DNA of 64,000 nt from Nocardioides sambongensis. Lineage in GTDB: Bacteria; Actinomycetota; Actinomycetes; Propionibacteriales; Nocardioidaceae. Under the pieces are notes generated by a model that did no database searches, was not told the DNA's origin, and saw nothing but the letters and a program-made list of their open reading frames with translations. The position numbers and the translations under genes are program-made. The DNA is taken from NCBI RefSeq assembly GCF_006494815.1, contig NZ_CP041091.1, positions 434,001 to 498,000 of the forward strand, read 5' to 3'. Shown here piece after piece: positions 2,606 through 21,846 of this stretch (its first letter is position 1; each line of letters opens with the position of its first letter).

Positions 2606-2663
2606 CTTCTTCTCTCAGGAGCGGAGGGGTGCGCTGGCGCGCGGGGAGTGGGGCCGTGACGCG

Positions 2664-5592
<2,929 letters not shown>

Positions 5593-5636
5593 GCCATGGC
5601 TGAGCCGGGACCGAGCGAGGGTGCCGACCGGCCCGG

Positions 5637-6818
5637 TCAGGACTCGCGGGCCTGGCCACCCAGGATGACGTCCAGGGTCCCGCCCTCGCACCAGGACGAC
5701 ACGCCCCCGAACTTCCCGGTGGTGGTCTCGGTGTAGCACTCCTCGGGCGGAGCCTGCGGCAGCGTCACCTGCTGCTCGGTGCAGTCACCGCTGCCGGGGT
5801 CGCAGGAGACCATCCGGCCGTCGTCGGTGACCGTGAACAGGTCGCTGCCCGCGGTCCAGCTCCACCCCCAGCCGTCGGCGGTGACCTCGACCGCGCTGCC
5901 GGTGTCGACGTCGAACACCTGGGAGGTCGACGGTCCCTCGCCACCGGTCGCGTCCATCGCCGACTCGTCGACGATCAGCACGTGCCGCCCGTCCGGTGAG
6001 AGCGAGCCGTAGCCGGCGACCTCGGCGGTCCACAGCACCTCGCCGGTGGCGGTGTCCACCACGGCCGGCGCCCCGTCGCGCGTGGTCGCCACCCGCTGCT
6101 CGGAGACCTCCCAGGCGGTGCCGACGTCGCTGCGCTCGGCCGTGCCGGACCGCCAGTCGACCCGGTAGGTGCTGCCGAAGCCGTCCTGCACCCAGACGGC
6201 CTCACCGTCCAGCGAGACCGGGAACCAGTCCTCGGAGGTCGGCCCGACGGTGACCCGGGCAGCCTCCGCGTCGGCCGCCACGTCGTACACGACCACCTGG
6301 AGCTCGCCGTCCACCGCCTCCGCGTAGGCCACGTAGGGCTGGTCGGGATCGCTGGCGTGGACCGTGCCCTCGGTCTCCAGCGCCAGCGGGTGCACCGCGC
6401 CCGAGCCGTCGACCAGCGAGAAGCGCTGCGGGCCCCCGCCGTCGCTGAAGGCGTTGTCCCCGTGCCGGACCACCAGACCCGCGGAGGTGTAGTAGAGCGA
6501 CTTGATCGCCGTGTCGTCAATGGTCGCGGTGCGCTCGTCGGCCGGGAAGTAGACCGTCCGGCCGACGGCGTAGACCGGGCCCTCGGGGCCGGTGCCGCCC
6601 GAGGGGTCCGGCGCCGTCTCGGTGGCGCCGATCCCGCCGCCGACCGCCACCGCGAGGACGGCGACCACCGCGACCGCTCCGGCACCCGCCGCGGCGACGC
6701 CGGTACGACGCCGGGCCCGCGTCCGGCGGGCCCGCTCCAAGATCGCGCCGGTGGGCGGGGCCGGGGTCTCCAGCGCCGAGGCCTCGTCGTGCAGGAGCTG
6801 GGTGAGTCGTTCAGTCAT
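5637..6818 (-). CDS. Membrane-anchored beta-propeller-like protein, partner of the SigE-type sigma factor
   Basis: 393 residues. A cytoplasmic N-terminus of about 40 residues, ending in an Arg-rich stretch, is followed by one transmembrane helix (about residues 39-60). A large extracytoplasmic part has repeated Asp/Gly-rich strands (WVQDGFG, DGRHVLIVDES, WSWTAGSDLFTVTDDGR) that look like PD40/WD40-type propeller blades, with Cys residues near the C-terminus (CDPGSGDC, ECYTET, SSWCEGG). Its start overlaps the end of the sigma gene by 8 bp, so the two are translationally coupled. This is the position of an anti-sigma factor, but the zinc anti-sigma HxxxCxxC motif is absent. An anti-sigma role is inference from position and topology only. 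Confidence 0.75.
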   Translation of the reverse strand: MTERLTQLLHDEASALETPAPPTGAILERARRTRARRRTGVAAAGAGAVAVVAVLAVAVGGGIGATETAPDPSGGTGPEGPVYAVGRTVYFPADERTATIDDTAIKSLYYTSAGLVVRHGDNAFSDGGGPQRFSLVDGSGAVHPLALETEGTVHASDPDQPYVAYAEAVDGELQVVVYDVAADAEAARVTVGPTSEDWFPVSLDGEAVWVQDGFGSTYRVDWRSGTAERSDVGTAWEVSEQRVATTRDGAPAVVDTATGEVLWTAEVAGYGSLSPDGRHVLIVDESAMDATGGEGPSTSQVFDVDTGSAVEVTADGWGWSWTAGSDLFTVTDDGRMVSCDPGSGDCTEQQVTLPQAPPEECYTETTTGKFGGVSSWCEGGTLDVILGGQARES

Positions 6819-7323
6819 GGTGGGCTCCCTGGGGAAGGACGGACTCTCCGAGCACGGCGCGCAGCTTGGTCAGCGCCTCGGAGGTCTGGCTCTTGACGGT
6901 GCCGTCGGAGACCGCGAGGGCGCGGGCGACCTGGGCGACGCTCAGGTCCTCGTAGAAGCGCAGCACCACGACGGCGCGTTGCCGCGGCGGCAGGGTGGCC
7001 AGGGCGCCCATCAGCGTGGTGCGGTCCGTCCAGTCCGGCTCGCTCCCGTGCTCGGGCAGCACCTCGGTGGGACGCTCGTTGCGCCACCCCTTCTTGCGGA
7101 ACCACGACGCTGCCGTGTTCACCAGCGTGGTGCGGGCATAGCCGGGCGCCGCCTCCAGGGTGCGCACCCGACGCCAGCTCGCGTAGGTCTTGGCGAGGGC
7201 GGTCTGCACCAGGTCCTCGGCCTCGCACGCGTCGCCCAGCATCAGGTAGGCGGTCCGGTAGAGGCTGGGCCAGCAGGCCTGGACCAGCTCGGTGAAGTCC
7301 TCGTCGGTCGGTGCGCGTGACAT
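6811..7323 (-). CDS. SigE-family (actinobacterial) RNA polymerase ECF-type sigma factor
   Basis: 170 residues, typical of the short actinobacterial SigE-type sigma-70 family. Region 2 lies in the first half ([22 protein letters not shown], then AEDLVQTAL) and region 4 near the end ([26 protein letters not shown] followed by the recognition helix [14 protein letters not shown]). The ATG at 7323 is preferred over an in-frame start at 7344 because GAAGGG lies seven bases before it. The gene overlaps the membrane-anchored propeller gene and is divergent from gatC. It probably directs a small envelope- or stress-related regulon, but no target promoter could be defined here. Confidence 0.92.
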
Positions 7324-7473
7324 CCGGTTCCCTTCGTCGGTCACCGGTCCAGATGCGGCGGCCGCCGGGTTCGGTTGGGTCGGGTGGGGTCAGTATCGCC
7401 CGGTGCGGACCGCTCGGCGCGCTGCCCGGCCTCGGGCGGGAGCACCGACGACCGGGTCGTCGTCCCGGCTCCC

Positions 7474-7479
7474 TAGGAT
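7474..7479 (+). promoter_or_regulatory. -10 element of a likely leaderless gatC promoter
   Basis: TAGGAT ends seven bases before the gatC ATG, so transcription would begin at or next to the start codon. No convincing -35 was seen. The same arrangement recurs at several genes in this window. Confidence 0.45.
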
Positions 7480-7486
7480 GGACCTC

Positions 7487-7801
7487 ATGCCTGAGACCGC
7501 ACGCGCCGAGATCTCGCGCGAGGAAGTGGCCCACCTGGCCGACCTCGCCCGGATCGACCTCGACGACGCCGAGCTGGACCACCTGGCACCGCAGCTCGCG
7601 GTGATCCTGGAGTCGGTGGCCGCCATCCGTGGCGTGGCCGGCGACGACGTCCCGCCGACGTCCCACCCGATCCCGCTGACCAACGTCTTCCGGGAGGACG
7701 TGGTCCGTCCCGGACTGAGCGCCGAGGAGGCCCTGGCGGGCGCGCCCGCGGCCGAGGACCAGCGGTTCTCCGTCCCGCGGATCCTGGGGGAGGAGCAGTG
7801 A
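7487..7801 (+). CDS. gatC: Asp-tRNA(Asn)/Glu-tRNA(Gln) amidotransferase subunit C
   Basis: 104 residues, the normal size of GatC. This small subunit wraps around GatA and GatB and stabilises the amidotransferase that converts misacylated Glu-tRNA(Gln) or Asp-tRNA(Asn) to the correct species. The family pattern is clear: [23 protein letters not shown] at the N-terminus, then the [17 protein letters not shown] region and the PRIL ending. The ATG at 7487 gives the canonical N-terminus and sits just behind a -10-like TAGGAT, so the mRNA may be leaderless. It overlaps gatA by the 4-bp GTGA. Confidence 0.95.
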
Positions 7802-9315
7802 CCGGCATCAGGAGCACCGCCGCCGAGATGGCCGCCGCGCTGGCCTCCGGCGAGACCAGCTCGGTCGCGCTGACCCAGGCCCACCTGGACCGGATCGCCG
7901 CGGTCGACGGCGACGCCGACTCCGGCGTCCACGCCTTCCTGCACGTCGACGCCGAGGGCGCCCTCGCCCAGGCCAGGACCTCCGACGAGCGCCGCGCCGC
8001 CGGCAACGCCCGGCACGCGCTGGACGGGGTGCCGATCGCGGTCAAGGACGTGCTCACCACCACCGGCCTGCCGACCACCTGCGGATCGAAGATCCTCGAG
8101 GGCTGGATCCCGCCCTACGACGCGACCGTGGTCCGCCGGATCAAGGACGCCGGCCTGCCGATCCTCGGCAAGACCAACATGGACGAGTTCGCGATGGGCT
8201 CCTCGACGGAGCACTCGGCCTACGGACCGACCCGGAACCCGTGGGACCAGACCCGGATCCCCGGCGGCTCCGGCGGCGGCTCGGCGGCCGCGGTCGCCGC
8301 GTTCGAGGCACCGCTGGCGCTCGGCACCGACACCGGCGGCTCGATCCGCCAGCCCGGCGCGGTCACCGGCACCGTCGGCGTGAAGCCGACCTACGGCGGC
8401 GTCTCCCGCTACGGCCTGGTCGCGATGGCCAACAGCCTCGACCAGGTCGGTCCGGTCACCCGGACCGTGCTGGACTCCGCGCTGCTGCACGACCTGATCG
8501 GTGGGCACGACCCGCTCGACTCCACCTCGGTCGACACCCCCGTCGGTGGCCTCGTCGCGGCCGCGGAGCAGGGAGCTGCCGGCGACCTCACCGGACTCCG
8601 GGTCGGCGTGATCACCGAGCTGTCGGGGGAGGGCTGGCAGCCCGGCGTGATGGCCCGGTTCAACGAGACCGTCGAGCTGCTCACCCGGGCCGGCGCCGAG
8701 GTCGTCGAGGTCTCCTGCCCGAACTTCGTGCACGCGCTCGCGGCCTACTACCTGCTGATGCCGGCCGAGGCCTCCTCCAACCTCGCCAAGTTCGACGCGA
8801 TGCGCTACGGACTGCGGGTGACGCCGGAGGGCTCGCCGAGCGCCGAGGACGTGATGAAGGCGACCCGCGACGCCGGCTTCGGCGACGAGGTCAAGCGGCG
8901 GATCATCATCGGCACCTACGCGCTGTCCAGCGGCTACTACGACGCCTACTACGGACAGGCCCAGAAGGTGCGGACGCTGATCAGCCGGGACTTCGCCGCC
9001 GCCTACGAGCAGGTCGACGTGCTGGTCTCGCCGACCTCGCCCACCACCGCCTTCCCGCTCGGGGAGAAGCTCGACGACCCGCTGGCGATGTACCTCAACG
9101 ACCTCGCCACGATCCCGGCCAACCTCGCCGGCGTCCCCGGCATCTCGGTGCCCGCCGGCCTCGCCGACGAGGACGGGCTCCCGGTGGGCTTCCAGGCGCT
9201 GGCCCCGGCGCTCGCCGACGACCGGCTCTACCGCGTGGGGGCCGCCGCGGAGGCGGCCGTCACCGCCGCCCTGGGCGGACCCATCCTGAACGAACTGCCG
9301 GAGGTGCTGGCGTGA
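7798..9315 (+). CDS. gatA: Asp-tRNA(Asn)/Glu-tRNA(Gln) amidotransferase subunit A
   Basis: 505 residues. GatA is the glutaminase/amidase subunit that releases ammonia from glutamine and channels it to GatB. The amidase-signature triad is visible as Lys83 (GVPIAVKDV), the cis-Ser158 in the glycine-rich GGSGGGS loop, and the nucleophile Ser182 in DTGGSIRQP; the spacing equals that of known GatA proteins. GTG start inside the GTGA overlap with gatC, and a second GTGA overlap joins it to gatB, so the three genes are translationally coupled. Confidence 0.97.
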
Positions 9316-10811
9316 GCGCGAACGACATCCTGGTCGACTTCGACGAGGTCGTGGCGTCGTACGACCCGGCGCTGGGGCTCGAGGTCCACGTCGAGCTCAG
9401 CACCGCCACGAAGATGTTCTGCGGCTGCCCGACGACCTTCGGCGGCGAGCCGAACACCCAGGTCTGCCCGACCTGCCTGGGGCTGCCCGGCGCGATGCCC
9501 GTGGTCAACGGGAAGGCCGTGGAGGCCGCGATCCGGATCGGCCTCGCACTCAACTGCGAGATCGCCGAGTGGTGCCGCTTCGCCCGGAAGAACTACTTCT
9601 ACCCGGACATGCCGAAGAACTTCCAGACCTCCCAGTACGACGAGCCGATCGCCTTCGAGGGCTACCTCGACGTCGATGTCGACGGCGAGACCTTCCGGGT
9701 CGGCATCGAGCGGGCGCACATGGAGGAGGACACCGGCAAGTCCACCCACGTCGGCGGCGCCACCGGCCGGATCCACGGCGCGGAGTACTCGCTGGTCGAC
9801 TACAACCGTGCCGGCATCCCCCTGATCGAGATCGTCACCAAGCCGATCGTCGGTGCCGGGGCGAAGGCGCCCGCGGTGGCCCGTGCCTACGTCTCCCAGC
9901 TGCGGGACCTGATCGTCGCGCTCGGTGTCTCCGACGCCCGGATGGACCAGGGCTCGATCCGCGCCGACGTGAACCTCTCGCTGGCGCCGAAGGGCTCGGA
10001 CGTGCTCGGCACCCGCACCGAGACCAAGAACGTGAACTCGCTGCGCTCGGTGGAGCGGGCGGTGCGCTTCGAGATGTCGCGTCACGCGGGCGTGCTCGAC
10101 GCCGGGCAGAAGATCTTCCAGGAGACCCGTCACTTCCACGAGGCCGACGGGACCACCTCCTCCGGACGGGCGAAGTCCGACGCCGAGGACTACCGCTACT
10201 TCCCCGAGCCCGACCTGGTGCCGGTGGCGCCGAGTCGCGCGTGGGTCGAGGAGCTGCGCGGCACGCTGCCGGAGAACCCCGCCCAGAAGCGCTCCCGGCT
10301 GCAGGCCGAGTGGGGCTACTCGGACCTGGAGATGCGGGACACCGTCGGGGCCGGCGCGCTCGACCTGGTGGCGGAGACCGTCGCCGCCGGTGCCAGCCCG
10401 CAGGCGGCCCGCAAGTGGTGGCTCTCCGAGCTCGCCCGGCGCGCCAACGACGCCGGTGTGGAGCTCACCGAGGTCGGTGTGTCGCCGGCCCAGGTCGCCG
10501 CGGTGCAGCAGCTCGTCGACGCCAAGACGATCAACGACAAGCTGGCTCGGCAGGTCTTCGACGGCCTGGTCGCCGGCGAGGGCACCCCGGAGGAGATCGT
10601 CGCCGCCCGCGGGCTGGCCGTGGTCTCCGACGACGGGGCCCTCTCCGCGGCCGTGGACAAGGCGATCGCGGACAACCCGGACGTCGCCGAGAAGATCCGC
10701 GGCGGCAAGGCGGCCGCGGCCGGTGCCCTGATCGGCGCGGTGATGAAGGAGATGCGCGGCCAGGCCGATGCCGGCCGGGTGCGCGAGCTGATCATCGAGA
10801 AGCTGAGCTGA
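9312..10811 (+). CDS. gatB: Asp-tRNA(Asn)/Glu-tRNA(Gln) amidotransferase subunit B
   Basis: 499 residues. GatB binds the misacylated tRNA, phosphorylates the acyl carboxylate with ATP and amidates it. The N-terminal signature LGLEVHVEL, the zinc-type cluster CGCP ... [15 protein letters not shown], the segments [14 protein letters not shown] and [14 protein letters not shown], and the C-terminal helical plus YqeY-like tail ([22 protein letters not shown]) are all present. GTG start overlaps the gatA stop. The presence of GatCAB implies that Gln-tRNA, and probably Asn-tRNA, is made by the indirect route. Confidence 0.97.
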
Positions 10812-10857
10812 GCCTGGACCCGGGCTGAGCCTGGACCGGGGCTGAGCCTGGACCCGG
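10807..10857. repeat. Three tandem 17-bp units at the end of gatB
   Basis: Three head-to-tail copies of GCTGAGCCTGGACCCGG (the middle copy with one change) start inside the last codons of gatB and run into the spacer. Each unit contains TGA, so the gatB stop is repeated in the same context. This is probably a slippage-derived repeat; no regulatory role is evident. The rest of the spacer up to the riboswitch (10858-10984) shows nothing recognisable. Confidence 0.75.
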
Positions 10858-10984
10858 GCGGACGAGGTGAGCGTGGGGCGGTGCGGCCCCGGGGGTCGCC
10901 ACGGCGACCACCTGTGACGCACCGCATCGCCCCCGACCACCCGTGCACCCCCGCCGTGGCGGCGATCCGGCCGATGGCGGCGTA

Positions 10985-11110
10985 GGATGCGCCCCGAATC
11001 ATTCATCACGCCCGTGGTGGGGGAAGCCGGTCCGAGTCCGGCGCTGACCCGCAACCGTAGGCCGCTGGAGAGCGGCGAGCCGGAGCACCTGTCACGGGAC
11101 GTCCTGACGC
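10985..11110 (+). promoter_or_regulatory. Cobalamin (AdoCbl) riboswitch aptamer
   Basis: The conserved core is plain: GGGAAGCCGGT ... GAGTCCGGCGCTGACCCGC followed by AACCGTA, and then the B12 box AGCCGGAGCACCTGTC at 11078-11093. These are the hallmarks of the AdoCbl-type riboswitch. It lies in the 5' leader of the five-gene ECF transporter unit and should lower its expression when coenzyme B12 is plentiful. The outer boundaries are estimates. Confidence 0.92.
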
Positions 11111-11146
11111 AGACGCTGTCGTGGAACGCAGCGGGTCGGCCCGGTG

Positions 11147-11172
11147 CCTCCCGCCGTATCGCAGCGGGAAGG
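11147..11172 (+). promoter_or_regulatory. Ribosome-binding-site sequestering hairpin of the riboswitch
   Basis: CCTCCCGC at 11147-11154 can pair with GCGGGAAGG at 11164-11172 (one bulged A, nine-base loop). The right arm contains the Shine-Dalgarno GGAAGGA of the gene starting at 11178. Closing this hairpin would block translation, so the riboswitch probably acts at translation initiation. The pairing is read directly; the ligand-dependent switch is inferred. Confidence 0.6.
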
Positions 11173-11177
11173 AACCC

Positions 11178-12317
11178 ATGCCATCGAACCGGACCCGTCG
11201 TGCCGGAGCGCTCGGGGTCGCCGCCGTCGCCCTGCTCGGCGCGCTGACCGCCTGCGGCGACGACGCCGACAGCGGCAGCGCCGACCCGGCCGACGCCAGC
11301 ACCTCCGCCGACGCCACCACCGACCTCGGAGGCGACGCGGCGCTGGCCGCGGCCGACTGGTTCGCCGGGCAGCTCGAGGACGGCCTCCTGGTCAACGAGG
11401 AGTACTCGACGGCCGACTACGGCGGCACCGTCGACGCGATCTACTCGTTCGAGGAGGTCGGCGCCGATGCCGACGACGTCACCGCGATGACCGACGCGGT
11501 CCTCGCCGCGGGCAAGGAGTACGTCGCGCCCGGCAAGGACATCTGGGCCGGCAACGCCGGCAAGCTGGTCAGCCTGGCCGTCGACCACGACGCCGATCCG
11601 ACCGACCTCGACGGCTTCGACGCGCTGGGCACCCTGGAGGACCGGGTGGACGAGTCCGGGCGCACCAGCGACAAGAGCTCCTACGGCGACTTCGCCAACT
11701 CACTGGGCCAGGCCTGGGCCGTACGCGGGCTGGACGCCGCCGGCTCCACCGAGCGCGACGCCGCCCTCGACTTCCTGCTGCTGCAGCAGTGCTCGGACGG
11801 GTACTTCCGGCAGGACTTCTCGCCGGCGAAGGCGAAGGACCAGTCCTGCGACACGGGCAAGGGTGAGCCGTCGGTCGACGCGACCGCGCTGGCCGTGGTG
11901 CTGCTCAGCGATCTGGCCGAGCCGACCGCCGACCTGACCGGGGCACTGGAGCGGGCGAGCGCCTACCTGGTCCAGGAGCAGGCCGAGGACGGGTCCCTGA
12001 TCGGCAGCGCCGAGCTGCCCGCCAACGCCAACAGCACCGGGCTCGCCGCCCGGGCCCTGCTCGTCGCGGGCGAGGACGAGGCCGCGGCGAACGCGGCCGC
12101 CTGGGTCTACGCCCACCAGCTCCCCGACGGCTGCGACGGTGACCTGGCCGCCGCCGCCGGTGCGATCGGGTACGACGACGCGGCACTCACCCTCGCCGGG
12201 ACGGACGGGATCACCGCCAAGACCTCCTACCAGTGGCGGCTGGCCACCGCGCAGGCGCTGCCCGCGCTGGCCACCACCCCGGAGGGCACCGAGCCCGCCG
12301 CCTGCCCTGCGGGCTGA
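11178..12317 (+). CDS. Lipoprotein with alpha/alpha-barrel (prenyltransferase/squalene-oxidase-like) repeats, putative cobalamin-capture protein
   Basis: 379 residues. Lipoprotein signal with lipobox LTAC (Cys26), then a Ser/Thr/Asp-rich linker and an all-helical domain with repeats resembling the alpha/alpha-barrel of prenyltransferase/squalene-oxidase proteins: paired helices with inner motifs such as AADWFAGQLEDG, DFLLLQQCSDGYF, AYLVQEQAEDGSL and AAWVYAHQLPDG (the Q..DG turn is typical). The same fold forms the alpha domain of mammalian intrinsic factor and transcobalamin. It is the first gene behind a B12 riboswitch and is followed by a DUF4430-like protein and an ECF transporter. This arrangement matches the Streptomyces SCO2321-SCO2325 type locus. 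A role as a surface B12 binder is inferred, not proven. Confidence 0.82.
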   Translation: MPSNRTRRAGALGVAAVALLGALTACGDDADSGSADPADASTSADATTDLGGDAALAAADWFAGQLEDGLLVNEEYSTADYGGTVDAIYSFEEVGADADDVTAMTDAVLAAGKEYVAPGKDIWAGNAGKLVSLAVDHDADPTDLDGFDALGTLEDRVDESGRTSDKSSYGDFANSLGQAWAVRGLDAAGSTERDAALDFLLLQQCSDGYFRQDFSPAKAKDQSCDTGKGEPSVDATALAVVLLSDLAEPTADLTGALERASAYLVQEQAEDGSLIGSAELPANANSTGLAARALLVAGEDEAAANAAAWVYAHQLPDGCDGDLAAAAGAIGYDDAALTLAGTDGITAKTSYQWRLATAQALPALATTPEGTEPAACPAG

Positions 12318-12321
12318 GCCC

Positions 12322-13047
12322 ATGGCCGGAGTCCGCTCCGTCTCCCGGGGCAGCCGCGCGGTGGTGGTCCTGCTGACCGGGCTGCTGCTGGTCGGCACCG
12401 GCGCCACGGCGGCCCCGGCCGGGGCGACCTCGACCTCGACCTCGAGCGCGTCCGCTCCGCTCTGCGACGGGGTCGCGGTCCTGGTCGACGCGGGCGGGCT
12501 GGGCGGCGCGGACACGGTGGCCTGCGTGGCCGAGACCGGTGCTGCGGCCGCCTTCGACGCCGCCGGCGTGGGCCTGGAGTTCCTGCCGCAGCAGCCGGGC
12601 TTCGTGTGCCGGGTCGCCGGGCGCCCCGCCGAGGGGCCCTGCTTCGACGGTGACGCGTACTGGAGCCTGTGGTGGTCCGACGGGAGTCACGGGTGGACCT
12701 ATGCGACGCTCGGGGTGACCGCGCTGGAGATCCCGGCCGGGGGAGCGGTGGCCTTCGCCTGGCACCAGGGTGAGGGCAGCGCCTCGGCACCGGACCTGGC
12801 GGTCCCGGAGCTGCGTGAGAGCGCGGGCACGACCCCCGGCACCGGCGCCAGCACCGGCGCCGGTGAGGCCGAAGGCGCTGGTGCCGCGGACGGCTCCGCC
12901 GAGGTCACGGCCTCCGCGTCGTCCTCCCCGGACGACACGGCCGCGGCCGCCGACGGCAGCGGCCTCTCCGTCTGGGTGGTCGCGCTGCTCGTCGGCCTGG
13001 TGCTGCTCGCCGCACTGGTGCCGATCGTGCGCAGGCGGAGCGGATGA
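12322..13047 (+). CDS. SCO2322-family membrane-anchored protein with DUF4430/transcobalamin-C-like domain
   Basis: 241 residues. N-terminal signal peptide (hydrophobic run about residues 13-30), an extracytoplasmic domain, a low-complexity Gly/Ala/Ser/Thr linker (about 165-210) and one C-terminal transmembrane helix followed by RRRSG, so it is anchored to the membrane from outside. The domain reads like a DUF4430 fold: VLVDAGG, a FDAAGVGLEF helix, GFVCRVAGRPAEG, then YWSLWWSDGSHGWTYA and a final strand pair ending VAFAWHQG; four Cys could make two disulfides. DUF4430 is the beta domain of transcobalamin/intrinsic factor. Stop four bases before the preceding reading frame's neighbour start, and a 4-bp ATGA overlap with the T component. 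Confidence 0.78.
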   Translation: MAGVRSVSRGSRAVVVLLTGLLLVGTGATAAPAGATSTSTSSASAPLCDGVAVLVDAGGLGGADTVACVAETGAAAAFDAAGVGLEFLPQQPGFVCRVAGRPAEGPCFDGDAYWSLWWSDGSHGWTYATLGVTALEIPAGGAVAFAWHQGEGSASAPDLAVPELRESAGTTPGTGASTGAGEAEGAGAADGSAEVTASASSSPDDTAAAADGSGLSVWVVALLVGLVLLAALVPIVRRRSG

Positions 13048-14179
13048 GGGTGCCGCGCGACCTGCACCCCGTCGCCTGGTGGATCTGGGCAGTCGGGCTG
13101 GCCGTGGGTGCCTCCAGCACCACCAACCCGATCCTGCTCGGCATCCTGATCGGAGCGGCCTGCCTGACCGTCTCCACCTGCCGCTCCGACCAGCCCTGGG
13201 CACGCTCGTTCCGCCTCTACCTGGCGCTCGCCGCGGTGGTCGTCGTGGTCCGCGTGCTCTTCCGGATCCTGCTCGGCGGCGACGTCCCGGGCGAGGTGAT
13301 CCTGGAGCTGCCGACCATCGGCCTGCCGGCCGCCGTCGCCGGCATCGACCTGCTCGGCCCGTTCACCCGGGAGGAGCTGCTGGCCGCCCTCTACGAGGGA
13401 CTGCGGCTGGCCACCCTGCTGATCGCGGTCGGTGCCGCCAACGCGCTGGCCAACCCCAAGCGGCTGATGAAGTCGCTGCCGCCGGCCCTCTACGAGATCG
13501 GCACCGCGATGACGGTGGCGATCTGCATCGTGCCCCAGCTGGCCGACAGCGCCCGCCGGGTGCGGGCGGCACAGCTGCTGCGCGGCGGCCCGAGCGGCCG
13601 GTTCCGCCGGGTGCGTGGGCTGCGCCGGCTGTTGGTGCCCGTGCTCGAGGACGCCTTCGACCGGTCGCTGGCGCTCGCCGCCGGGATGGACGCTCGTGGC
13701 TACGGGCGGGTCGGCGACGTCGACCCGCGGCGTCGGCGTACCACCGGCGCGCTGATGATCGTCGGCCTGATCGGGGTCTGCGTCGGGGTCTACGGGTTGC
13801 TGGACCACACCGCACCGCGCCTGCTGACCCTGCCGATGCTGTCGGCCGGGCTGGTGGCGGCCGGTGCCGGCTTCCTCAGCGCGGGTGGCCGGGTGCGGCG
13901 TACCCGTTACCGGCCCGACCGCTGGGAGCTGCCCGAGCTGCTCGTCGCCACCTCCGGCGTGGTCAGCGGCGCCGGGCTGTGGGCCGTCCAGCGCTGGCAG
14001 CCGCTGGTGGCCGATCCCGGCGTCCTGGCACCCCCGACGGTCAGTCTCGGCGCTCTGGTCACCGCCCTGGTCGCGGTCGCGCCGGTCTGGTGCGCGCCGC
14101 CGCCGCTGCGCGCGGTAGACCCGGTCCCGCCCCGACCCAGGACCGCGACGCGGAGCGGCCGAAGGTGGGGGCCCGATGA
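13044..14179 (+). CDS. ECF transporter transmembrane component T (CbiQ-like), apparent frameshift at its 3' end
   Basis: About 378 residues if corrected. The energy-coupling T subunit links the ATPases to the substrate-binding S component. Several membrane helices are followed by the T-family cytoplasmic region: the RAAQLLRG motif after a long amphipathic helix, and AAGMDARGYG, which matches the second Ala-Arg-Gly coupling motif of CbiQ/EcfT proteins. The start ATG overlaps the previous gene by ATGA. As written the frame does not stop before the ATPase gene; adding one G to the GGGGG run at 14165-14169 gives a stop at 14177-14179 that overlaps the next ATG by ATGA. The break is therefore probably an assembly error. 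Confidence 0.85.
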
Positions 14180-15796
14180 TCGAGCTGCGCGACATCACCT
14201 TCTGCTACGCCGACGCCGGCACGCCGGTGCTGGCCGACGTCGACCTCACCATCGAGCCGGGGGAGCTGATGGTGCTGGCCGGACCCACCGGCGTCGGCAA
14301 GTCCACCCTGCTCGGCGTGGTCGCCGGCCTGGTGCCGACCTTCAGCGGCGGCACCCTGCGCGGCGACGTGCTGTTCGACGGGCGCAGCGTGATCGACCTG
14401 CCGGCGCGCGAGCGCGCCGACGTGGTCGGCTACGTGGGGCAGAACCCGCCGTCGTGGTTCGTCACCGACACCGTCGAGGAGGAGCTCGCGTTCGGGATGG
14501 AGCAGCTCGGCCTGCCGCCGGCCACCATGCGCCGCCGGGTGGAGGAGACGCTCGACCTGCTCGGCATCGCCGACCTGCGCCACCGCGACCTGCGCACCCT
14601 CTCCGGCGGCCAGCAGCAGCGGGTGGCGATCGGCTCGGTGCTGACCGCCCACCCCCGCCTGCTGGTCCTCGACGAGCCGACCTCCGCACTGGACCCGACG
14701 GCCGCCGAGGACGTGCTGGCCACCATCACCCGGCTGGTGCACGACGTCGGCCTCTCGGTCCTGGTCGCCGAGCACCGGCTGGAGCGGGTGGTCCCGTTCG
14801 CGGACCGGATGGCGTTGCTCACCGCCGCCGACGGAGCGGGACGGCTCCGGGTCGGGGACCCGGCCGAGGTGCTCCGCGACGCGCCGATCGCACCACCCCT
14901 GGTGGAGCTCGGCCGGCTCGCCGGCTGGCAGCCGCTGCCGCTCTCGGTCCGCGACGCCCGCCGGCGCGCCGGGACGCTCAAGGAGCGCCTGGGGGCGGCG
15001 CCCGCGCCCGCCGCACCGCCCGCGACCACCCCGTCGTCGAGGTACGACGCCTCGCGGTCACCCACGGCCGGACCGCCGCACTGCGCGACGTCGACCTCAC
15101 CCTGTCCCGGGCACGGTCACCGCGCTGATGGGCCGCAACGGCGCCGGCAAGTCGACCCTGATGTGGACCATCCAGGGCCGTCACCCGGCGGCGGTCGGCT
15201 CGGTCCGGGTCGCCGGCCGGGACCCGGCGGGGCAACGTCCCGAAGCCCGCCGGCGGCAGGTCGGCCTGGTGCCGCAGAGCCCGGCGGACCTGCTCTACCT
15301 GGAGACCGTCGCCGAGGAGTGTGCGGCCGCCGACCTCTCCGCGGAGGCCGCGGCGGGCACCTGTCGTGCCCTGCTGGAGCGGTTGGCGCCGGCCATCGAC
15401 GACGAGCAGCACCCGCGTGACCTCAGCGAGGGCCAGCGGCTGGCGCTGGCGGTGGCGATCGTGCTCACCGCCCGCCCGCCGGTGCTGCTGCTGGACGAGC
15501 CGACCCGCGGCCTGGACTATCCGGCCAAGCACGCCCTGGCCGAGGTGCTGCGCGACCTGGCCGCCGAGCCGGGTGCGGAGCGGGCCGTGCTGGTGGCCAC
15601 CCACGACGTCGAGTTCGTCGCCCAGGTCGCCGACCGGTTGGTGGTGGTCGCCGACGGCGAGGTCGTCTCGGACGCACCGGTGGCACGCGGGGTGACCGAG
15701 TCCCCGGCCTTCGCCCCGCAGGTCACCAAGGTGCTCGGCTCCGGCTGGCTGACCGTGGCCCAGGTGGCGGCGGCGCTGCCGCCGGGTGCGCCGTGA
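14176..15796 (+). CDS. ECF transporter double ATPase (two ABC domains), two apparent frameshifts
   Basis: About 540 residues if corrected. Two ABC domains drive the ECF importer. Domain 1: Walker A AGPTGVGKST, signature LSGGQQQR, Walker B LLVLDEPTSALD. Domain 2: Walker A GRNGAGKST, signature LSEGQRLA, Walker B VLLLDEPTRGLD. The frame breaks twice: one C appears to be missing in the run at 15029-15032 (restores ATTPVVEVRRLAV) and one C at 15106-15108 (restores TLSPGTVTALMGRNG). Both repairs give an uninterrupted fused ATPase, so I call it one gene with two sequence errors. A real split gene is possible but less likely, since domain 2 would lack its start. Confidence 0.85.
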
Positions 15797-16608
15797 ACGG
15801 CGAGCGGCGGGTCGCCGTACCAGTGGGCCTGCGGTCGGCGGCCGTGCTGGGGCTGGCGTCGGTCACCGGCCTGGTGATGATCTTCTGGCCGCTGCTGCTC
15901 GAGGTGGATCCGGTCGGCGACCAGCGGGTCGACCCGCCGTTCCTGTTCCTGCTGCTGCTCCCGGTGATCCTGGCCGTCGTGCTCGCCGAGCTCGGCGAGG
16001 GCGGGATGGATGCCCGGGTGCTGGCGGTGCTGGGCGTGCTCTCCGCCATCAACGCGGTGCTCCGGCTGGTCAGCGCGGGCACCGCCGGGCTGGAGCTGGT
16101 CTTCTTCCTGCTGATCCTCGGCGGTCGGGTGTTCGGAGCGGGGTTCGGCTTCGTGCTGGGCTGCACCTCCCTGTTCGCCTCGGCGCTGCTGACCGCGGGG
16201 GTCGGCCCGTGGCTGCCGTTCCAGATGCTGGTGGCGGCCTGGGTGGGGATGGGGGCGGGACTGTTGCCGCGCTCGGTGCGCGGACGGCGTGAGATCGTGA
16301 TGCTCGTCGTCTACGGGATCCTCGCCGCCTACGGCTACGGCCTGCTGATGAACATGTGGGGCTGGCCGTTCATCGCCGGGATCGCGGTGCCCGGCCAGGA
16401 CACCTCCGAGCTCGCCTACGTCCCCGGCGCCCCGGTGGCGGAGAACCTGCACCACTTCCTGATCTACACCCTGCTCACCTCGACCGCCGGGTGGGACACC
16501 GGGCGGGCGCTGACCAACGCGCTGGCGATCGCCGTGCTCGGCCCGGCGGTGCTCACCACGCTGCGTCGCGCGGCCCGCAAGGCCCGGGTGGTGCGCACCC
16601 AGGCGTGA
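15793..16608 (+). CDS. ECF transporter S component, putative cobalamin-specific
   Basis: 271 residues, with about six hydrophobic helices and a short Arg/Lys-rich C-terminus, as expected for an ECF substrate-specific subunit. The first helices contain VTGLVMIFWPLLLEVD, and later ones the small-residue packing GGRVFGAGFGFVLG and LLTAGVGPWLPFQML, which resemble the Ala/Gly-rich faces where S components meet the T subunit. GTG start in a GTGA overlap with the ATPase gene. B12 specificity is inferred from the upstream riboswitch and the intrinsic-factor-like partner proteins; S-component substrates cannot be read directly from sequence. Confidence 0.85.
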   Translation: MNGERRVAVPVGLRSAAVLGLASVTGLVMIFWPLLLEVDPVGDQRVDPPFLFLLLLPVILAVVLAELGEGGMDARVLAVLGVLSAINAVLRLVSAGTAGLELVFFLLILGGRVFGAGFGFVLGCTSLFASALLTAGVGPWLPFQMLVAAWVGMGAGLLPRSVRGRREIVMLVVYGILAAYGYGLLMNMWGWPFIAGIAVPGQDTSELAYVPGAPVAENLHHFLIYTLLTSTAGWDTGRALTNALAIAVLGPAVLTTLRRAARKARVVRTQA

Positions 16609-16655: not shown

Positions 16656-17813
16656 TCAGGGCTCGACCAGCAGGATCCGGTCGTCCTCCGGGCCCGGCTC
16701 GCCGCGGCCGTCGGTGTTGCTCGTGGCCAGCCAGAGGCGGCCGTCCGGGGCCAGCGCGACCGTCCGCAGCCGTCCGTACTCGCCACCGCGCCGACCGGCG
16801 AAGTACGGCGTCGGGTCGCTGGCCACGCCGTCGGCGACCCTCACCCGCCAGAGCCGCTCTCCGCGGAGCGCCGCCATCCACAGATAGCCGCCGACGAAGG
16901 CCAGACCGGACGGCGACGCGGCCGCCGGCGACCAGGCCAGGGCGGGCTGCTCCAGCGTCGGCGGTCCGGCGCGCCCCTCCGCCATCGGCCAGCCGTAGTT
17001 GCCGCCCGGGACGATCCGGTTGAGCTCGTCGGCCACGTCGTCGCCGAGCTCGGAGGCCCACAGCTGACCGGCTCCGTCGAAGGCGAGGCCCTGCACGTTG
17101 CGGTGCCCCCTGGACCACACCGGGGTGCCGAACGGGTTCCCGGGCGCCGGATCGCCCTCGGTGGTGATCCGCAGGATCTTGCCGGCCAGGGAGCCCTTGT
17201 CCTGGGCGAGGTCGCCGGCGCCGGTCTCGCCGGTGGACACGTAGAGGTGGCCGTCCGGGCCGAACTCCAGGCGTCCGCCGTCGTGCAGCGCGCCGGCAGG
17301 GATGCCGGTCAGCACCGGCTTCGGCGCGGTCATCCGGTCCTCGGCCACCGTCACCCGCACCACGCGGTTGTCCGTGCGGGAGGTCAGGTAGAGGTAGAGC
17401 CGGGCGTCGGTGCCGAAGGTCGGCGAGACCGCGACGCCGAGCAACCCGCCCTCCCCGCGGGGTGCCACCCCGGGGACGGTGCCGAGCTCGGTGACCGTGG
17501 CCTCGGCCTCGGAGCCCGGCTCGGCCGGCGCCACCAGCAGCACCCGCGCGGTCTCGCGCTCGGTCACCACCGCTCGCCCGTCGGGCAGGAAGTCCAGGCC
17601 CCACGGGGTGTCCAGCCCGGAGACGACCGTGCCGACCACGTCGGGGATGCCGTCGAAGGTGAACATCCCCTCCGACCCGTCCTCGGCTGACGGGACGGCG
17701 GTCAGGTCCTCGGAGACGGTGACCGTGCTCTCGTTGCCGCCCTGGCCGCACCCGGCGGCCAGCACCGCGGTGCCGAGCAGCAGTGCCAGCGACCGTCGGG
17801 CGGGTCGCCGCAT
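16656..17813 (-). CDS. PQQ-type glucose/sorbosone dehydrogenase-like lipoprotein
   Basis: 385 residues. Lipobox LAAGC (Cys22) marks an exported lipoprotein. The rest is a six-bladed propeller of the soluble glucose/sorbosone dehydrogenase (GSDH) family: LDTPWGLDFLPDGRAVVTER, GEGGLLGVAVSP, the YLTSRTDNRVVR strand, LHDGGRLEFGPDGHLYVSTGE, KILRI, GHRNVQGLAFD and ELNRIVPGGNYGWP are all family landmarks. Members oxidise sugars or aldoses at the cell surface using PQQ, but many actinobacterial members have no tested activity. The ATG overlaps the upstream hydrolase stop (TGATG), so the two are coupled. Confidence 0.88.
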   Translation of the reverse strand: MRRPARRSLALLLGTAVLAAGCGQGGNESTVTVSEDLTAVPSAEDGSEGMFTFDGIPDVVGTVVSGLDTPWGLDFLPDGRAVVTERETARVLLVAPAEPGSEAEATVTELGTVPGVAPRGEGGLLGVAVSPTFGTDARLYLYLTSRTDNRVVRVTVAEDRMTAPKPVLTGIPAGALHDGGRLEFGPDGHLYVSTGETGAGDLAQDKGSLAGKILRITTEGDPAPGNPFGTPVWSRGHRNVQGLAFDGAGQLWASELGDDVADELNRIVPGGNYGWPMAEGRAGPPTLEQPALAWSPAAASPSGLAFVGGYLWMAALRGERLWRVRVADGVASDPTPYFAGRRGGEYGRLRTVALAPDGRLWLATSNTDGRGEPGPEDDRILLVEP

Positions 17814-18724
17814 CAGCCCACCTTCGCCAGGAAGTCCAGGAGCAGGTCGTGCACCTCGTCGGGGCGCTCGAGCTGGAGGAAGTGGCTGCCGCGCAGCTCG
17901 ACGAAGTCGGCGTCGGCCATCCGGGCCGCGGCCGTCGCCATGTCCCGGGCGCCGGCCAGCACGTCGTACCGGGCCGCGACGAAGCGGGCGGGCACGGTCA
18001 GCGAGCTGAGCGAGACCCGGGCGTGCCGCGACGTGCTCAGCGCGAGGTGGGCGTACCAGTCCACCGGGGTGGTCAGGAACTCCCCGATCCCGCGGATCGC
18101 GGCCTCGCGCTCGAGCGGGCCGAACATGAACCCGGTGCGTCCCAGCGCACCGATCAGCCGCGGGCCGACGGGCACCCGGCGGGTCACCGGGGTCAGCGCC
18201 CGGCCGACGTACTTGCCGGCGCGGCACACGTTGACGGTCAGGCTGCGGGCCACCGGGCGGGGGAGGCGCAACGGAGCGAGCATCGTGGCGAAGGTGTCGC
18301 CGGGCACCCCGCACATCGCGAAGAGACCGGCCACCCGCTCGGGGTTGCGGTAGGTGAGCTCGAACATCGTGTTGACGCCCATCGACCAGCCCATCAGCAC
18401 CGCCCGGTCGATGCCGAAGTGGTCCATCACCGAGAGAGCGTCCTCGACGAAGTGCTCGATCTGCACGTGGCGTCGGTCCCGCGGACGGTCCGAGCCGCCC
18501 ACGCCGCGGTGGTTCCAGGAGATCACCCGGACGCCGCACCCGGGCTCGAGCAGCCGTGGCCACAGGTGGTGGTTGGTGCCGAGGCCGTTGCACAGCACCA
18601 CGGTCGGCCCGTCGATCAGGCCGTCCGGGTCGTTGGTCCAGGCCCGCACCGTGGTGCCGTCGTCGGAGAGGATGTCGTGGAAGGAGACCGCGGTGGACTC
18701 GCTCTCGCGGGCTGAGGTCGACAT
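17813..18724 (-). CDS. Alpha/beta hydrolase
   Basis: 303 residues. The alpha/beta-hydrolase core is clear: VVLCNGLGTNHHLW (oxyanion region), VISWNHRGVGGSD, the nucleophile elbow GWSMGVN, a late Asp in FVAARYDVLAGARD, and a catalytic His in LRGSHFLQLERPDEV. The ATG at 18724 gives a normal N-terminus and lies seven bases behind a CACAAT -10-like element. A longer GTG or ATG start is possible. It is translationally coupled to the sugar dehydrogenase gene. Substrate unknown; an esterase or a hydrolase acting on small lipids would fit. Confidence 0.85.
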   Translation of the reverse strand: MSTSARESESTAVSFHDILSDDGTTVRAWTNDPDGLIDGPTVVLCNGLGTNHHLWPRLLEPGCGVRVISWNHRGVGGSDRPRDRRHVQIEHFVEDALSVMDHFGIDRAVLMGWSMGVNTMFELTYRNPERVAGLFAMCGVPGDTFATMLAPLRLPRPVARSLTVNVCRAGKYVGRALTPVTRRVPVGPRLIGALGRTGFMFGPLEREAAIRGIGEFLTTPVDWYAHLALSTSRHARVSLSSLTVPARFVAARYDVLAGARDMATAAARMADADFVELRGSHFLQLERPDEVHDLLLDFLAKVG

Positions 18725-18855
18725 GGCGCCGATTGTGCCCGAGCCGTCGCCGCGTCGTGCCGGCATCTCGCGACCTCGCGCGACACACCGGGGGCACCCG
18801 GACAGCGATCTGCCGGACGCGGATCGCTAGCGTGCTCGTCCATGAGGCACCCGTC

Positions 18856-21846
18856 GTGAGCACGCGGTGGGGAGCGGTCGTGCGTGGCCTGCGCTACCGG
18901 CGCGGCCAGACGGTGGTCACCCTGCTGGTGATCGCGGTGCTGGCCGCGATCGCCGCGTCGGCGCCCTGGTACGCCCGGATGACCCGCGACCAGACGACGG
19001 TGCGAGCCTTCGACGTCGGTGCTCCGGCGTCGACCCTGCGCATCGACTCGAGTGCCACGTCCGTGCCCGACGACCTGGTGCCCGACGACCCGATGATCAT
19101 CGATCCGGTGCCCAGCCGCGAGGCGGCGGTGGTCTGGGCTCCGCCCGACATCGCCAAGCCCGGCGAGGGACTGCTGCTGAGCCGTGCCGGGGTCTGTGAC
19201 CACCTGCGCTTCGTCGACGGCGGCTGCCCGGCCGGAGCCGGCGAGATCGCCGTGTCCAGCGCCGATCAGGCGCAGTGGGGCCTCGACGTCGGCGCCGCGG
19301 TGCCGTTCGCCCCCTCCACCGGCTCCGGGGCCGGGGGGTCGCTGGAGGTCGTCGGCATCTACCAGGTGGTCGACGGCGAGGATCCCTACTGGTACGGCCT
19401 GGTCCCCGACGGCCGCTCCGGCTGGCGCGACCTGGAGATCCCGGTCGCGGACAAGTTCGTCACCGACCCGGCCACCTGGCGCGACCTCCCCGACATCGGC
19501 GCGCAGAGCCACCTCGACCTTCGCGTCGACGCCACCCGCATCGACTCCGACGACCTGCCACACCTCCAGCAGCTGTACGACGACCTCGACGCCGCCGTGG
19601 TCAGCTCGGGCGAGGAGTCGCTGACCAGCGCGATCCCCGACACCATCGACGAGCTCGAGCACGGTTTCGACGTCGCGGGCCGCGGGATCGCCCTCACGGT
19701 CGGTCAGCTCATCGCGGTCGGGCTGGTCAGCCTGGTGCTCGCCGCGCTGCTCGGCGTGCGCGCGCTGCGCCGCGAGCTCGGGCTGCGGCGGCTGCGTGGC
19801 AGCTCACCGGCCCGGCTCGGCCGCGCCGCCGGTCTGGAGTGGCTCGTCGTCGCGGTGCCCGGCACGCTGGCGGGCTTCCTCGGGGCCGCCGTGTTCGCGC
19901 TCTCCGTGCGCGCCACCTGGCTGGACCAGGCGCGGGTGCTCTGGCCGCCCTGGGGGGCAGTGGCGGCCGCGGCCGCCGTCCCGGTCGTGGGCGTCCTGCT
20001 CGTCGCCCTCCTCACCGACCGGGCGGCCCGAGCCCCGATCCCGAGCCTGCTGCGGGCCACCGACGCACGCGCGTCGACCGGCCGCGTCGGCCTGCTGGTG
20101 CTCGACGTACTGCTCCTGGTCGTCGTCGGCTGCTCGATCCTGGTCGCGCTGACCTCCACCGAGTCCACCCCCATCGTGCTGCTCGCGCCGGCCCTGCTGG
20201 CGGTCGGTGGGGGCGTGCTGGTGTGCCGGGTGCTGGTGCTGCTGATCGGTCGGCTCGGCCCGCACCGGCTGGTCCGCCGGCCCGCGCTCGGCCTCGGTCT
20301 GCTCGAGATCGCCCGCGGGGACGGGCTGCGGGGGATCGTCGTCGTCTCGGCCGTGGCCACCGCGCTCCTGGTGCTGACCACGCAGGCCGCCCTGATCGGC
20401 AACGACAACCGCAACCACCGTGCCGACGTCGAGACCGGCGCGGCCACCGTCTACCGCACCACCGCCGACGCCGGCCAGGTGCAGCGGGTGCTCGACGAGA
20501 TCGACCCGGAGCGCCGGCGGGCCACCGCGGTGGCCACCGTCGGCCGCCCCGCCGACAGCTACCGCATCCTCTACGTCGAGCCGGACGCCTTCCGCCGCAT
20601 CGCCTACGGCGCCACCGAGGCCGCCGACGCCGCCCAGTGGGCGGCGATCACCGCCCCCGCGGGCCGCCCGACCACGCTCACCGGCGACCGGCTACGGGTG
20701 CGGATGACCGGACCGGTCGAGGCGGACGCGTCGATGCAGGTCGGCGTCACCGTGCTCGACGCGACCGGGGAGGCCGAGTCGCTGGTGGTCGGGCAGGCGC
20801 GACCCGGCGTACCGGGCACCCAGGCGCTGGAGACGGCGATCGACTGCGCCGAGGAGTGTCGCCTGGTGTCGATCCGGCTCGACCCCGAGGGGGACACGAC
20901 GTTCCGCGGCTCGCTCGCGGTCGACGCGGGCGCGGGCGGCGAGTGGACCCCGGTCGGCCTCGACCCCGACGGGTGGCGGGCGACGGGCGTCGACTTCGAC
21001 GGCTACCGGCTCGGGATCACCGCCGGTCAGCCGGTCGGAGTGCTCGACCTCGACCTGGCGACCGGTGGTTTGCCGGTCGCGGTGCAGTCGACCTACCTGG
21101 CCTCCAGCCTGCCGGTCCTCGTCTCGGAGCGGATGCAGGCAACGGTGGAGGACGGCCGCGAGGTGCACACCCCCGGCACGGCGCTGCTTCCGGTCGAGGT
21201 GCGCGGGAGCCTGCACGACGCGACGCCGCGACTCCTGGAGGACGCGCTGTTGAGCGACCTCGCGACCGCGACCCGGTACGGCGACGCCCGCACCGACTCG
21301 ACCTCCGAGGTCTCGCTCTGGTTCGCCGCAGGTGCCGACGACGACGCGTTCGTCGCGGAGCTGGAACGGCGCGGTGTGCGGCTGACCGAGCTGGGTGACG
21401 CCGCCGAGGCGCGGTCGGTCTACGCGGACTCCTCCGAGGCGCTGGCCAATCGGCTGAACCCGGTCGCCGCGGTGCTCGTGGCGCTGCTGGCGGCCGCTGC
21501 CCTCGGGCTCACCCTGGCCGGTGGCTGGCGCCGTCGCCGCGACGACGCGGAGGCGCTCGACCTGGCCGGCGTGCCGCGCCGGGTGTGGCTGCGCGCCAGC
21601 AGGGTCGCGCTGCTGCTCCCGGTCCTCGCCGGGGTGGCCGTCGGCGCCGTGGCCGGCGCGGTCGGGACGTCGTTCGCCGTGCGCCGGGTGCCGATCTTCG
21701 CCACGGCCGAGCCGGCGGTCCACCTGCAGCTGGACCTGCACCGGGCCGCGCTCGTCGCCGCCGTCGCGGTCGCGCTGCTGGTGCTGCTGGGCGTGGCCGC
21801 GGCCGCGGGACGATCCATCGCCGCCGGGCGGAGGGGGGAGCGATGA
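18856..21846 (+). CDS. FtsX-type ABC transporter permease (MacB-like topology, large extracytoplasmic domains)
   Basis: 996 residues. A first transmembrane helix (about residues 17-38) leads into an extracytoplasmic domain, then a block of helices (about 275-480) with an FtsX-like core, a second large extracytoplasmic domain (about 490-850), and three final helices (about 870-980, starting LNPVAAVLVALLAAAA). This is the double FtsX architecture of mechanotransmission-type ABC systems. The GTG at 18856 has GAGG upstream. The gene overlaps the first ATPase gene by ATGA, so permease and both ATPases form one operon. Substrate unknown; lipoprotein, peptide or signal transduction roles are all possible. 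Confidence 0.85.
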   Translation: MSTRWGAVVRGLRYRRGQTVVTLLVIAVLAAIAASAPWYARMTRDQTTVRAFDVGAPASTLRIDSSATSVPDDLVPDDPMIIDPVPSREAAVVWAPPDIAKPGEGLLLSRAGVCDHLRFVDGGCPAGAGEIAVSSADQAQWGLDVGAAVPFAPSTGSGAGGSLEVVGIYQVVDGEDPYWYGLVPDGRSGWRDLEIPVADKFVTDPATWRDLPDIGAQSHLDLRVDATRIDSDDLPHLQQLYDDLDAAVVSSGEESLTSAIPDTIDELEHGFDVAGRGIALTVGQLIAVGLVSLVLAALLGVRALRRELGLRRLRGSSPARLGRAAGLEWLVVAVPGTLAGFLGAAVFALSVRATWLDQARVLWPPWGAVAAAAAVPVVGVLLVALLTDRAARAPIPSLLRATDARASTGRVGLLVLDVLLLVVVGCSILVALTSTESTPIVLLAPALLAVGGGVLVCRVLVLLIGRLGPHRLVRRPALGLGLLEIARGDGLRGIVVVSAVATALLVLTTQAALIGNDNRNHRADVETGAATVYRTTADAGQVQRVLDEIDPERRRATAVATVGRPADSYRILYVEPDAFRRIAYGATEAADAAQWAAITAPAGRPTTLTGDRLRVRMTGPVEADASMQVGVTVLDATGEAESLVVGQARPGVPGTQALETAIDCAEECRLVSIRLDPEGDTTFRGSLAVDAGAGGEWTPVGLDPDGWRATGVDFDGYRLGITAGQPVGVLDLDLATGGLPVAVQSTYLASSLPVLVSERMQATVEDGREVHTPGTALLPVEVRGSLHDATPRLLEDALLSDLATATRYGDARTDSTSEVSLWFAAGADDDAFVAELERRGVRLTELGDAAEARSVYADSSEALANRLNPVAAVLVALLAAAALGLTLAGGWRRRRDDAEALDLAGVPRRVWLRASRVALLLPVLAGVAVGAVAGAVGTSFAVRRVPIFATAEPAVHLQLDLHRAALVAAVAVALLVLLGVAAAAGRSIAAGRRGER

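Follow-up and report, generated by a model that had tools for sequence, protein, structure and literature searches.

In the available text of Burroughs et al. (2007; PMC1796856), the SLBB superfamily was defined, and bacterial SLBB domains resembling transcobalamin were described as fused to toroids, either domain coming first. The operons of these proteins contain CbiO and CbiQ genes, B12 scavenging was proposed for them, and low-GC Gram-positives, planctomycetes and some euryarchaea are named as carriers. Here, an operon of the soil-type actinomycete Nocardioides sambongensis was analyzed, which encodes a toroid lipoprotein, a membrane-anchored beta protein and an energy-coupling factor (ECF) transporter, and which lies in a window of 64,000 nt (the whole stretch of DNA analyzed; G000:C1:434001-498000) within a single-contig genome of 4.43 Mb. 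It resembles the systems of PMC1796856 in its surface SLBB domain, its toroid, its ECF genes and its predicted B12 role, but neither the split pair of the actinomycetes nor a circular permutation appears in the available text of that article.

Unlike transcobalamin, intrinsic factor and haptocorrin, the B12 carriers of animals, the capture module of this operon is made up of two bacterial proteins, separate and each anchored, which accompany an ECF importer; the toroid in the window is not specifically transcobalamin-like, and cobalamin binding is only putative here. The NCBIfam families SCO2321 (NF053823) and SCO2322 (NF040672) comprise homologs that occupy equivalent operon places ahead of the genes of the T component, the ATPase and the S component, but both families are circularly permuted relative to the window pair, which falls below their cut-offs. 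ECF-type import of vitamin B12 is also represented by ECF-CbrT of Lactobacillus delbrueckii (PMC5997447), where S components share one ECF module; the accessible part of that paper describes no extracellular capture proteins and states that the S component of ECF importers normally binds the substrate itself. The window S component showed no sequence match to any solved chain. BtuG of Bacteroides (PMC6143338) is likewise a surface lipoprotein that catches B12 ahead of an importer; it is a Gram-negative protein, according to the accessible text a femtomolar B12 binder able to strip intrinsic factor, and it is likened here by function, not by fold. Among SCO2320, SCO2321, SCO2323, SCO2324 and SCO2325, one paper was found, in which, as far as its available text goes, the signal sequence of SCO2321 serves for delivery, as a peptide; no mention of SCO2322 was found in the open-access literature searched. 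The same literature yielded no experimental description of a bipartite capture device, as had been supposed in the first-pass annotation of the window.

The class-wide B12-linked uptake operon is real and was already predicted in outline; what is new is that the capture device is split and that its halves occur in two concerted circular topologies. We consider it fairly probable that this is a cobalamin-repressed corrinoid-salvage operon in which toroid and beta protein form a matched capture device, from which corrinoid passes to the dedicated ECF transporter through its S component. If so, the ECF importers of actinomycetes are preceded by a split transcobalamin, which would be the bacterial counterpart to the B12 carriers of animals and give a directly testable capture step. 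The first-pass annotation had proposed bipartite capture from two surface proteins; a split surface pair with both folds was found, but the general idea had already been predicted (PMC1796856, available text). Overall, its observation was partly confirmed and its interpretation partly supported.

Folds and anchors of the two surface proteins

The toroid and the beta domain are encoded by two genes and not as one chain (Table 1). The alpha/alpha-barrel lipoprotein named in the first-pass annotation was recovered together with its lipobox, and a lipobox-like pattern was found within the first 45 residues in 52 of 87 toroid relatives. The predicted structure (predicted local distance difference test, pLDDT, 91) was matched to toroids by Foldseek; transcobalamin (8ixu) was matched at E 3.7e-4 and rank 34, which is not specific to transcobalamin, and it was absent among the 50 matches listed in a second Foldseek look. 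DxDD is the catalytic motif of class II terpene cyclases. Because this motif is missing (D-x-D-D at positions 232-235 in 0 of 87 aligned toroids, Asp234 being conserved in all 87), a terpene-cyclase activity of the toroid was rejected. Longer toroid relatives were considered as toroid-beta fusions and rejected, given that no DUF4430 match was found in the ten scanned (six of 516-542 amino acids); the tails of the long relatives have no Pfam assignment and appear immunoglobulin (Ig)-like by eye. An extra toroid gene was observed upstream of the riboswitch in five Nocardioides-type loci (L036, L042, L047, L049 and L052; loci and genomes are given by L and G numbers), and in L051 a second toroid lies between the beta gene and the T gene.

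The beta protein carries a signal peptide and a C-terminal hydrophobic helix, and such a helix follows the beta domain in 103 of 106 relatives. In the structure model, the domain was found to be of the transcobalamin type. The earlier label "DUF4430-like" thus holds for the modelled fold but not for the family, as no Pfam family was matched at E≤0.1 and hence not DUF4430 (PF14478). No DUF4430 match was found in the window genome, one of 58 genomes has one, and the search of the beta family against PDB sequences returned nothing beyond one chance match (E 0.63). Modelled one at a time, the proteins yielded the two transcobalamin-type folds that had been expected, but the toroid was closer to terpene cyclases; the folded models and the two genes support the idea of two separate surface proteins with these folds.

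Circular permutation of both capture proteins

In SCO2322-type proteins, the half with the tryptophan strand was found to come first and the half with the VxVxxD strand and the helix last, which is the reverse of the window beta protein. The Nocardioides beta profile matched all SCO2322-type proteins (8/8) in two swapped pieces, model positions 72-109 first and then a piece within positions 3-64. When the order was undone, these domains gave a single match to the beta profile with 10.4-35.6 bits, compared with at most 7.0 bits in the 288 shuffles reported of 300; the lowest score was that of L061, whose native pieces were each under 2 bits. Similarly, in the SCO2321-type toroids the C-terminal two thirds precede the N-terminal third. 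For 13 of the 16 such toroids of L125-L140, both pieces could be located, and these 13 were picked for the tests. At the C-terminal end of these proteins, the N-part profile reached 19.2-59.6 bits in every case, and at their N-terminal end the C-part profile reached 37.2-74.5 bits; one contiguous match was obtained in 12 of the 13 when the order was undone in silico; the sub-profiles were partly trained on classified loci (genus loci and the 13 toroids). Streptomyces had been said to have the same gene set. The SCO2321/SCO2322-type pair is indeed homologous, but both of its proteins are circularly permuted; the window toroid scored 37 bits against the SCO2321 family, short of the cut-off of 300, and the window genome gave no match to the SCO2322 family.

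An artefact of toroid internal repeats and short beta-grasp motifs would be the alternative to a double permutation, and we regard it as very improbable. The toroid is a repeat fold with weak off-register matches, one of which reached 17.8 bits (in L127), only one barrel half was securely found in L131, L134 and L138, and the low L061 beta scores point in the same direction. In 31 unpermuted toroids, however, the N-part profile reached off-register at most 10.2 bits, against 19.2-59.6 bits in the 13 permuted ones, and this control rejected the idea that internal repeats produce the swapped matches of the toroids. The C-part scores, the contiguous matches after undoing and the margin over the shuffles also speak against an artefact, and the independent NCBI models NF053823 and NF040672 both aligned to their unpermuted counterparts in G070, G093 and G111 as two pieces in exchanged order.

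The order of both proteins was then compared over 77 loci, of which 73 were classified; L132, L135, L149 and L160 (no T and S) were left out, L132 and L135 showing the permuted order though not classified. Among the 73, 38 loci were unpermuted in both proteins, 15 were permuted in both and none was mixed, i.e., toroid and beta protein share one permutation state in 53 of the 53 loci where both were scored; in another 18, the beta protein is permuted and no toroid was scored, and two have neither. Both barrel halves were securely placed in 13 of the 15 permuted pairs. In L131 and L134, the second half reached only 19.2 and 17.2 bits (that of L134 begins inside the first half), and the permuted call relies on the N-terminal half and on an NF053823 match from model positions 2 and 3. 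L138, with one barrel half only, was classified as beta-only in the state count and as permuted-type in the riboswitch tally, and the truncated second toroid of L044, called permuted by a weak 12.2-bit half, was not counted.

Because shared ancestry explains part of the coupling, a tree of the T and S components was built from 58 of the 73 classified loci (14 genus loci were thinned out, and L062 was dropped for its split S component). The unpermuted loci did not form one clade in this tree (approximately unbiased test, p-AU 0.0013), and the best tree contained four changes between the states, in which both proteins change together. Two independent pairs lie on well-supported branches (four in all), the supported ones going the same way, and with so few pairs a sign test for coupled change cannot reach significance. 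The permuted pair of L130 was found on a T and S core grouping with four unpermuted loci (100/97). In the capture-domain tree (38 rows), one 100/100 branch united all 15 permuted pairs with L143 and L145, which are unpermuted; the permuted pairs were not one clade in the best tree, which has two changes, and were one clade in 14% of 200 bootstraps.

In the simplest explanation, each permutation had a single origin close to the L143/L145 lineage, and the rewired pair was later swapped as a unit among transporter cores; a return from the permuted to the unpermuted state may also have taken place. Inheritance of the pair as a unit apart from the core is the strongest evidence in this analysis for joint action of toroid and beta protein, and the shared rewiring suggests that the two pieces work as a matched pair. 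A fuller scenario, in which a two-piece extracellular cobalamin clamp exists in two circular topologies, both partners having been permuted in one lineage, probably on the same stretch of the tree, and then exchanged as a unit between ECF cores, is offered as a serious but tentative possibility. The coupled permutation is an unusually clean evolutionary argument that SCO2321 and SCO2322, widespread uncharacterised families, are partners, and it offers a natural experiment on the extent to which two folds that interact tolerate joint rewiring.

Of the permuted toroids, 8 of 15 are followed by a hydrophobic segment at the C-terminus, and so are 6 of 11 unpermuted toroids of the class; the type of anchor therefore does not track permutation. 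Permutation of both chains may have allowed the two anchors to be relocated with the cleft kept, an idea that the anchor tally does not yet support. A tandem toroid-beta-toroid-beta arrangement was observed before the T, ATPase and S genes in L142 (G152:C1:672000-683000), a duplication of the kind from which permuted genes could arise. In L156-L159 (f29; genomes of 1.4-2.2 Mb), the permuted beta protein occurs without a recognised toroid, extends only 9-13 residues past the domain and so is without a C-terminal anchor; a cobalamin-class riboswitch lies upstream.

Proposed corrinoid role and competing explanations

Within the genus, the beta protein was found in 33 of 36 other genomes and a relative of the S component in 35 of 36; G035 has neither, and G003 has only a diverged S component, within the SCO2322-type operon L061. 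CobJ was over its cut-off in 14 of the 25 genus genomes tested, the window genome included. All 11 CobJ-less genomes keep both the beta protein and the S component, and all 11 have proteins with B12-binding domains. FecCD permeases were checked in nine of these 11, and in six of them (G006, G012, G019, G020, G022 and G024) FecCD was found only as an adjacent pair, which we take to be the arrangement of siderophore importers, or as a weak partial match. The sole match to the cobalamin riboswitch RF00174 found in G024 (C1:210009-210135) stands before an operon of this type. G006, G012, G020 and G022 have two RF00174 matches each, one before an operon of this type (under the cut-off in G012 and G022) and the other before the large subunit of a ribonucleotide reductase; a riboswitch before a reductase is also present in G009 (L168). 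G019 likewise has a second RF00174 match. Judged from these sequence comparisons, the predicted import of corrinoid by the operon has good support.

In the window genome and in G035, a FecCD gene lies about 1.1-1.2 kb downstream of a riboswitch. The arrangement in the window genome (G000:C1:3565929-3568283) pairs the top-scoring cobalamin riboswitch with a FecCD (BtuC-type) permease at a distance of 1.2 kb, likely a second B12 importer. The bacterium probably has both import routes and makes the corrin ring; given this riboswitch-linked permease and CobJ, the operon studied here would therefore serve salvage and not be a lifeline. Uptake had been described as unlike that based on BtuF. This holds for the operon, which contains no FecCD permease (its membrane genes are of the CbiQ and S types, and the FecCD matches of the genome lie elsewhere), but not for the genome, with its BtuC-type permease.

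Searches covered 148 genomes of the class; outside the class, they covered the protein database and 14 genomes used as controls in the family searches. The SCO2322 family was over its cut-off in 48 of the 148 class genomes; in 30 of the 48 (counted by hand from the listed rows), a SCO2321 toroid match immediately precedes the SCO2322 match on the same strand. All 40 class loci were scanned for RNA families. When a same-strand match to RF00174, RF01482 or RF01689 at gathering score, located 138-402 nt ahead of the first capture domain, was counted as a riboswitch, 41 of 73 related loci had one: 13/18 permuted-type loci (L125-L140, L163 and L164, with L132, L135 and L138 included), 5/12 unpermuted class loci (L141-L151 and L161; L149 is unclassified, and the match of L151, on the opposite strand, was not counted), 7/17 beta-only loci and 16/26 genus loci, the window excluded.

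In the proposed mechanism, cobalamin would repress the operon via the riboswitch. The toroid, tethered by its lipid, and the beta protein, held by its C-terminal helix, would both lie outside the membrane and together take up the corrinoid, which would most likely be sandwiched between the toroid mouth and the beta domain, as in transcobalamin, and then be loaded onto the S component of the ECF transporter. The modelled folds, the cobalamin riboswitch, the gene order, the conservation and the common topological state of the pair are the observations from which we infer ligand binding, contact between toroid and beta protein, and hand-over to the S component.

Several observations weigh against this reading. 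The structures nearest to the toroid were class II terpene cyclases and sugar enzymes, with transcobalamin at ranks 34 and 48, and the best Foldseek match of the beta model had E 7.9e-3, none reaching E 0.001. In seventeen loci that have a permuted beta protein together with T and S, no toroid was recognised in the vicinity (L162 lies at a contig edge), and the toroid is therefore not always needed there. No upstream riboswitch at gathering score was found in 32 of the 73 loci, including 5 of the 18 permuted-type loci, and both Streptomyces-like loci (L139 and L140, with full-score matches to the SCO models) are without one. By sequence, the S component matched no solved PDB chain at E≤1, and the ATPase is broken in frame within the window itself. 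Finally, a lone FecCD permease is present in three of the nine CobJ-less genomes checked (G002, G009 and G018), and the window genome has both CobJ and the second riboswitch-linked FecCD permease.

The loci without a toroid and the enzyme-like structure of the toroid would fit a beta protein that alone serves the ECF transporter as cobalamin receptor, with the toroid as an accessory (for example a reservoir, a cell-wall docking part or a processing enzyme) and no sandwich being formed; the paralogous locus L063, which keeps toroid-like and DUF4430 proteins beside separate riboswitches, can be read in the same way. This is considered unlikely, as the permutation state is common to both proteins in every locus where both were scored and changes together, the cyclase motif is missing in every aligned toroid, and the gene order, toroid then beta, is the domain order of transcobalamin given by Burroughs et al. 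(PMC1796856, in the text available). Less weight still is given to a substrate other than cobalamin itself, such as a corrinoid precursor, a degradation product or another cobalamin-related metabolite. Riboswitches report cobalamin status and not the substrate, and with CobJ and a second riboswitch-linked permease kept in the window genome, two systems could therefore divide the corrinoids; against this, the six CobJ-less relatives that have B12-binding-domain proteins and no lone BtuC-type permease keep the system.

Operon layout and importer genes

The riboswitch, the T component and the S component named in the first-pass annotation were all located (Table 1), although the Pfam match of the S component (ECF-ribofla_trS) was weak; the riboswitch was the sole Rfam match at gathering scores across the 64 kb. 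The genes had been described as joined by 4-bp overlaps. Such ATGA/GTGA overlaps were found at the beta protein/T, T/ATPase and ATPase/S joins, but the toroid and beta genes do not overlap and have 4 bases between them.

The ATPase, described earlier as a fused double protein, was not found as such in the window: when the intact protein of a relative was used in tblastn, the first nucleotide-binding half (14164-14994), a linker piece (15030-15104) and the second half (15107-15766) were placed in three different frames. In 71 of the 74 loci with scores for both halves, these share a single open frame. Three loci depart from this: the window, L062, which has a split S component too, and L160, which is without T or S and has weak matches. 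The frame changes in the window may be a sequencing error or a real lesion. The T component, two ATPase halves and the S component are encoded together, as for an ECF transporter with a dedicated module, and a relative of the S component is present in 54 of 58 genomes; the importer had been called complete, which agrees with this set of genes, but with a frame-broken ATPase its completeness is doubtful here.

Table 1. Features of the operon in the window (window positions; secondary structure in residues of the beta protein)
Feature	Position	Strand	Details
Cobalamin riboswitch aptamer RF00174	10998..11110	+	40.1 bits, gathering 31.5; 67 nt before first gene
Alpha6/alpha6-toroid lipoprotein ('BAR'), extracellular, unpermuted order	11178..12317	+	lipobox LTAC followed by G, cysteine = residue 26
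Transcobalamin-beta-like (SLBB fold) membrane-anchored protein	12322..13047	+	domain ~residues 46-154; C-terminal hydrophobic helix
Secondary structure order of the beta model			E51-56, E65-69, H74-80, E85-87, E95-98, E113-119, E142-148
ECF T component (CbiQ family)	13044..14179	+	PF02361 E 3.7e-14, 53.3 bits
ECF ATPase region, two nucleotide-binding halves	14176..15796	+	PF00005 in both halves; two frame changes
S component (substrate-binding membrane subunit)	15793..16608	+	weak PF07155 match, E 0.0032, below cut-off

A second cobalamin-linked system with three RF00174 matches was observed in a relative (L063; G014:C25, minus strand, ~1851-14728). Its proteins include a toroid-like protein with Ig domains, a 1354-residue protein with true DUF4430, FIVAR, fn3 and Ig domains, and a small protein that is beta-like by eye with Ig, followed by ATPase- and S-like genes. 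In the window, a 17-bp tandem repeat of 3.1 copies lies just upstream of the operon (10807-10859), and a glucose/sorbosone dehydrogenase frame (PF07995) at 16656-18863 on the minus strand is convergent with it.

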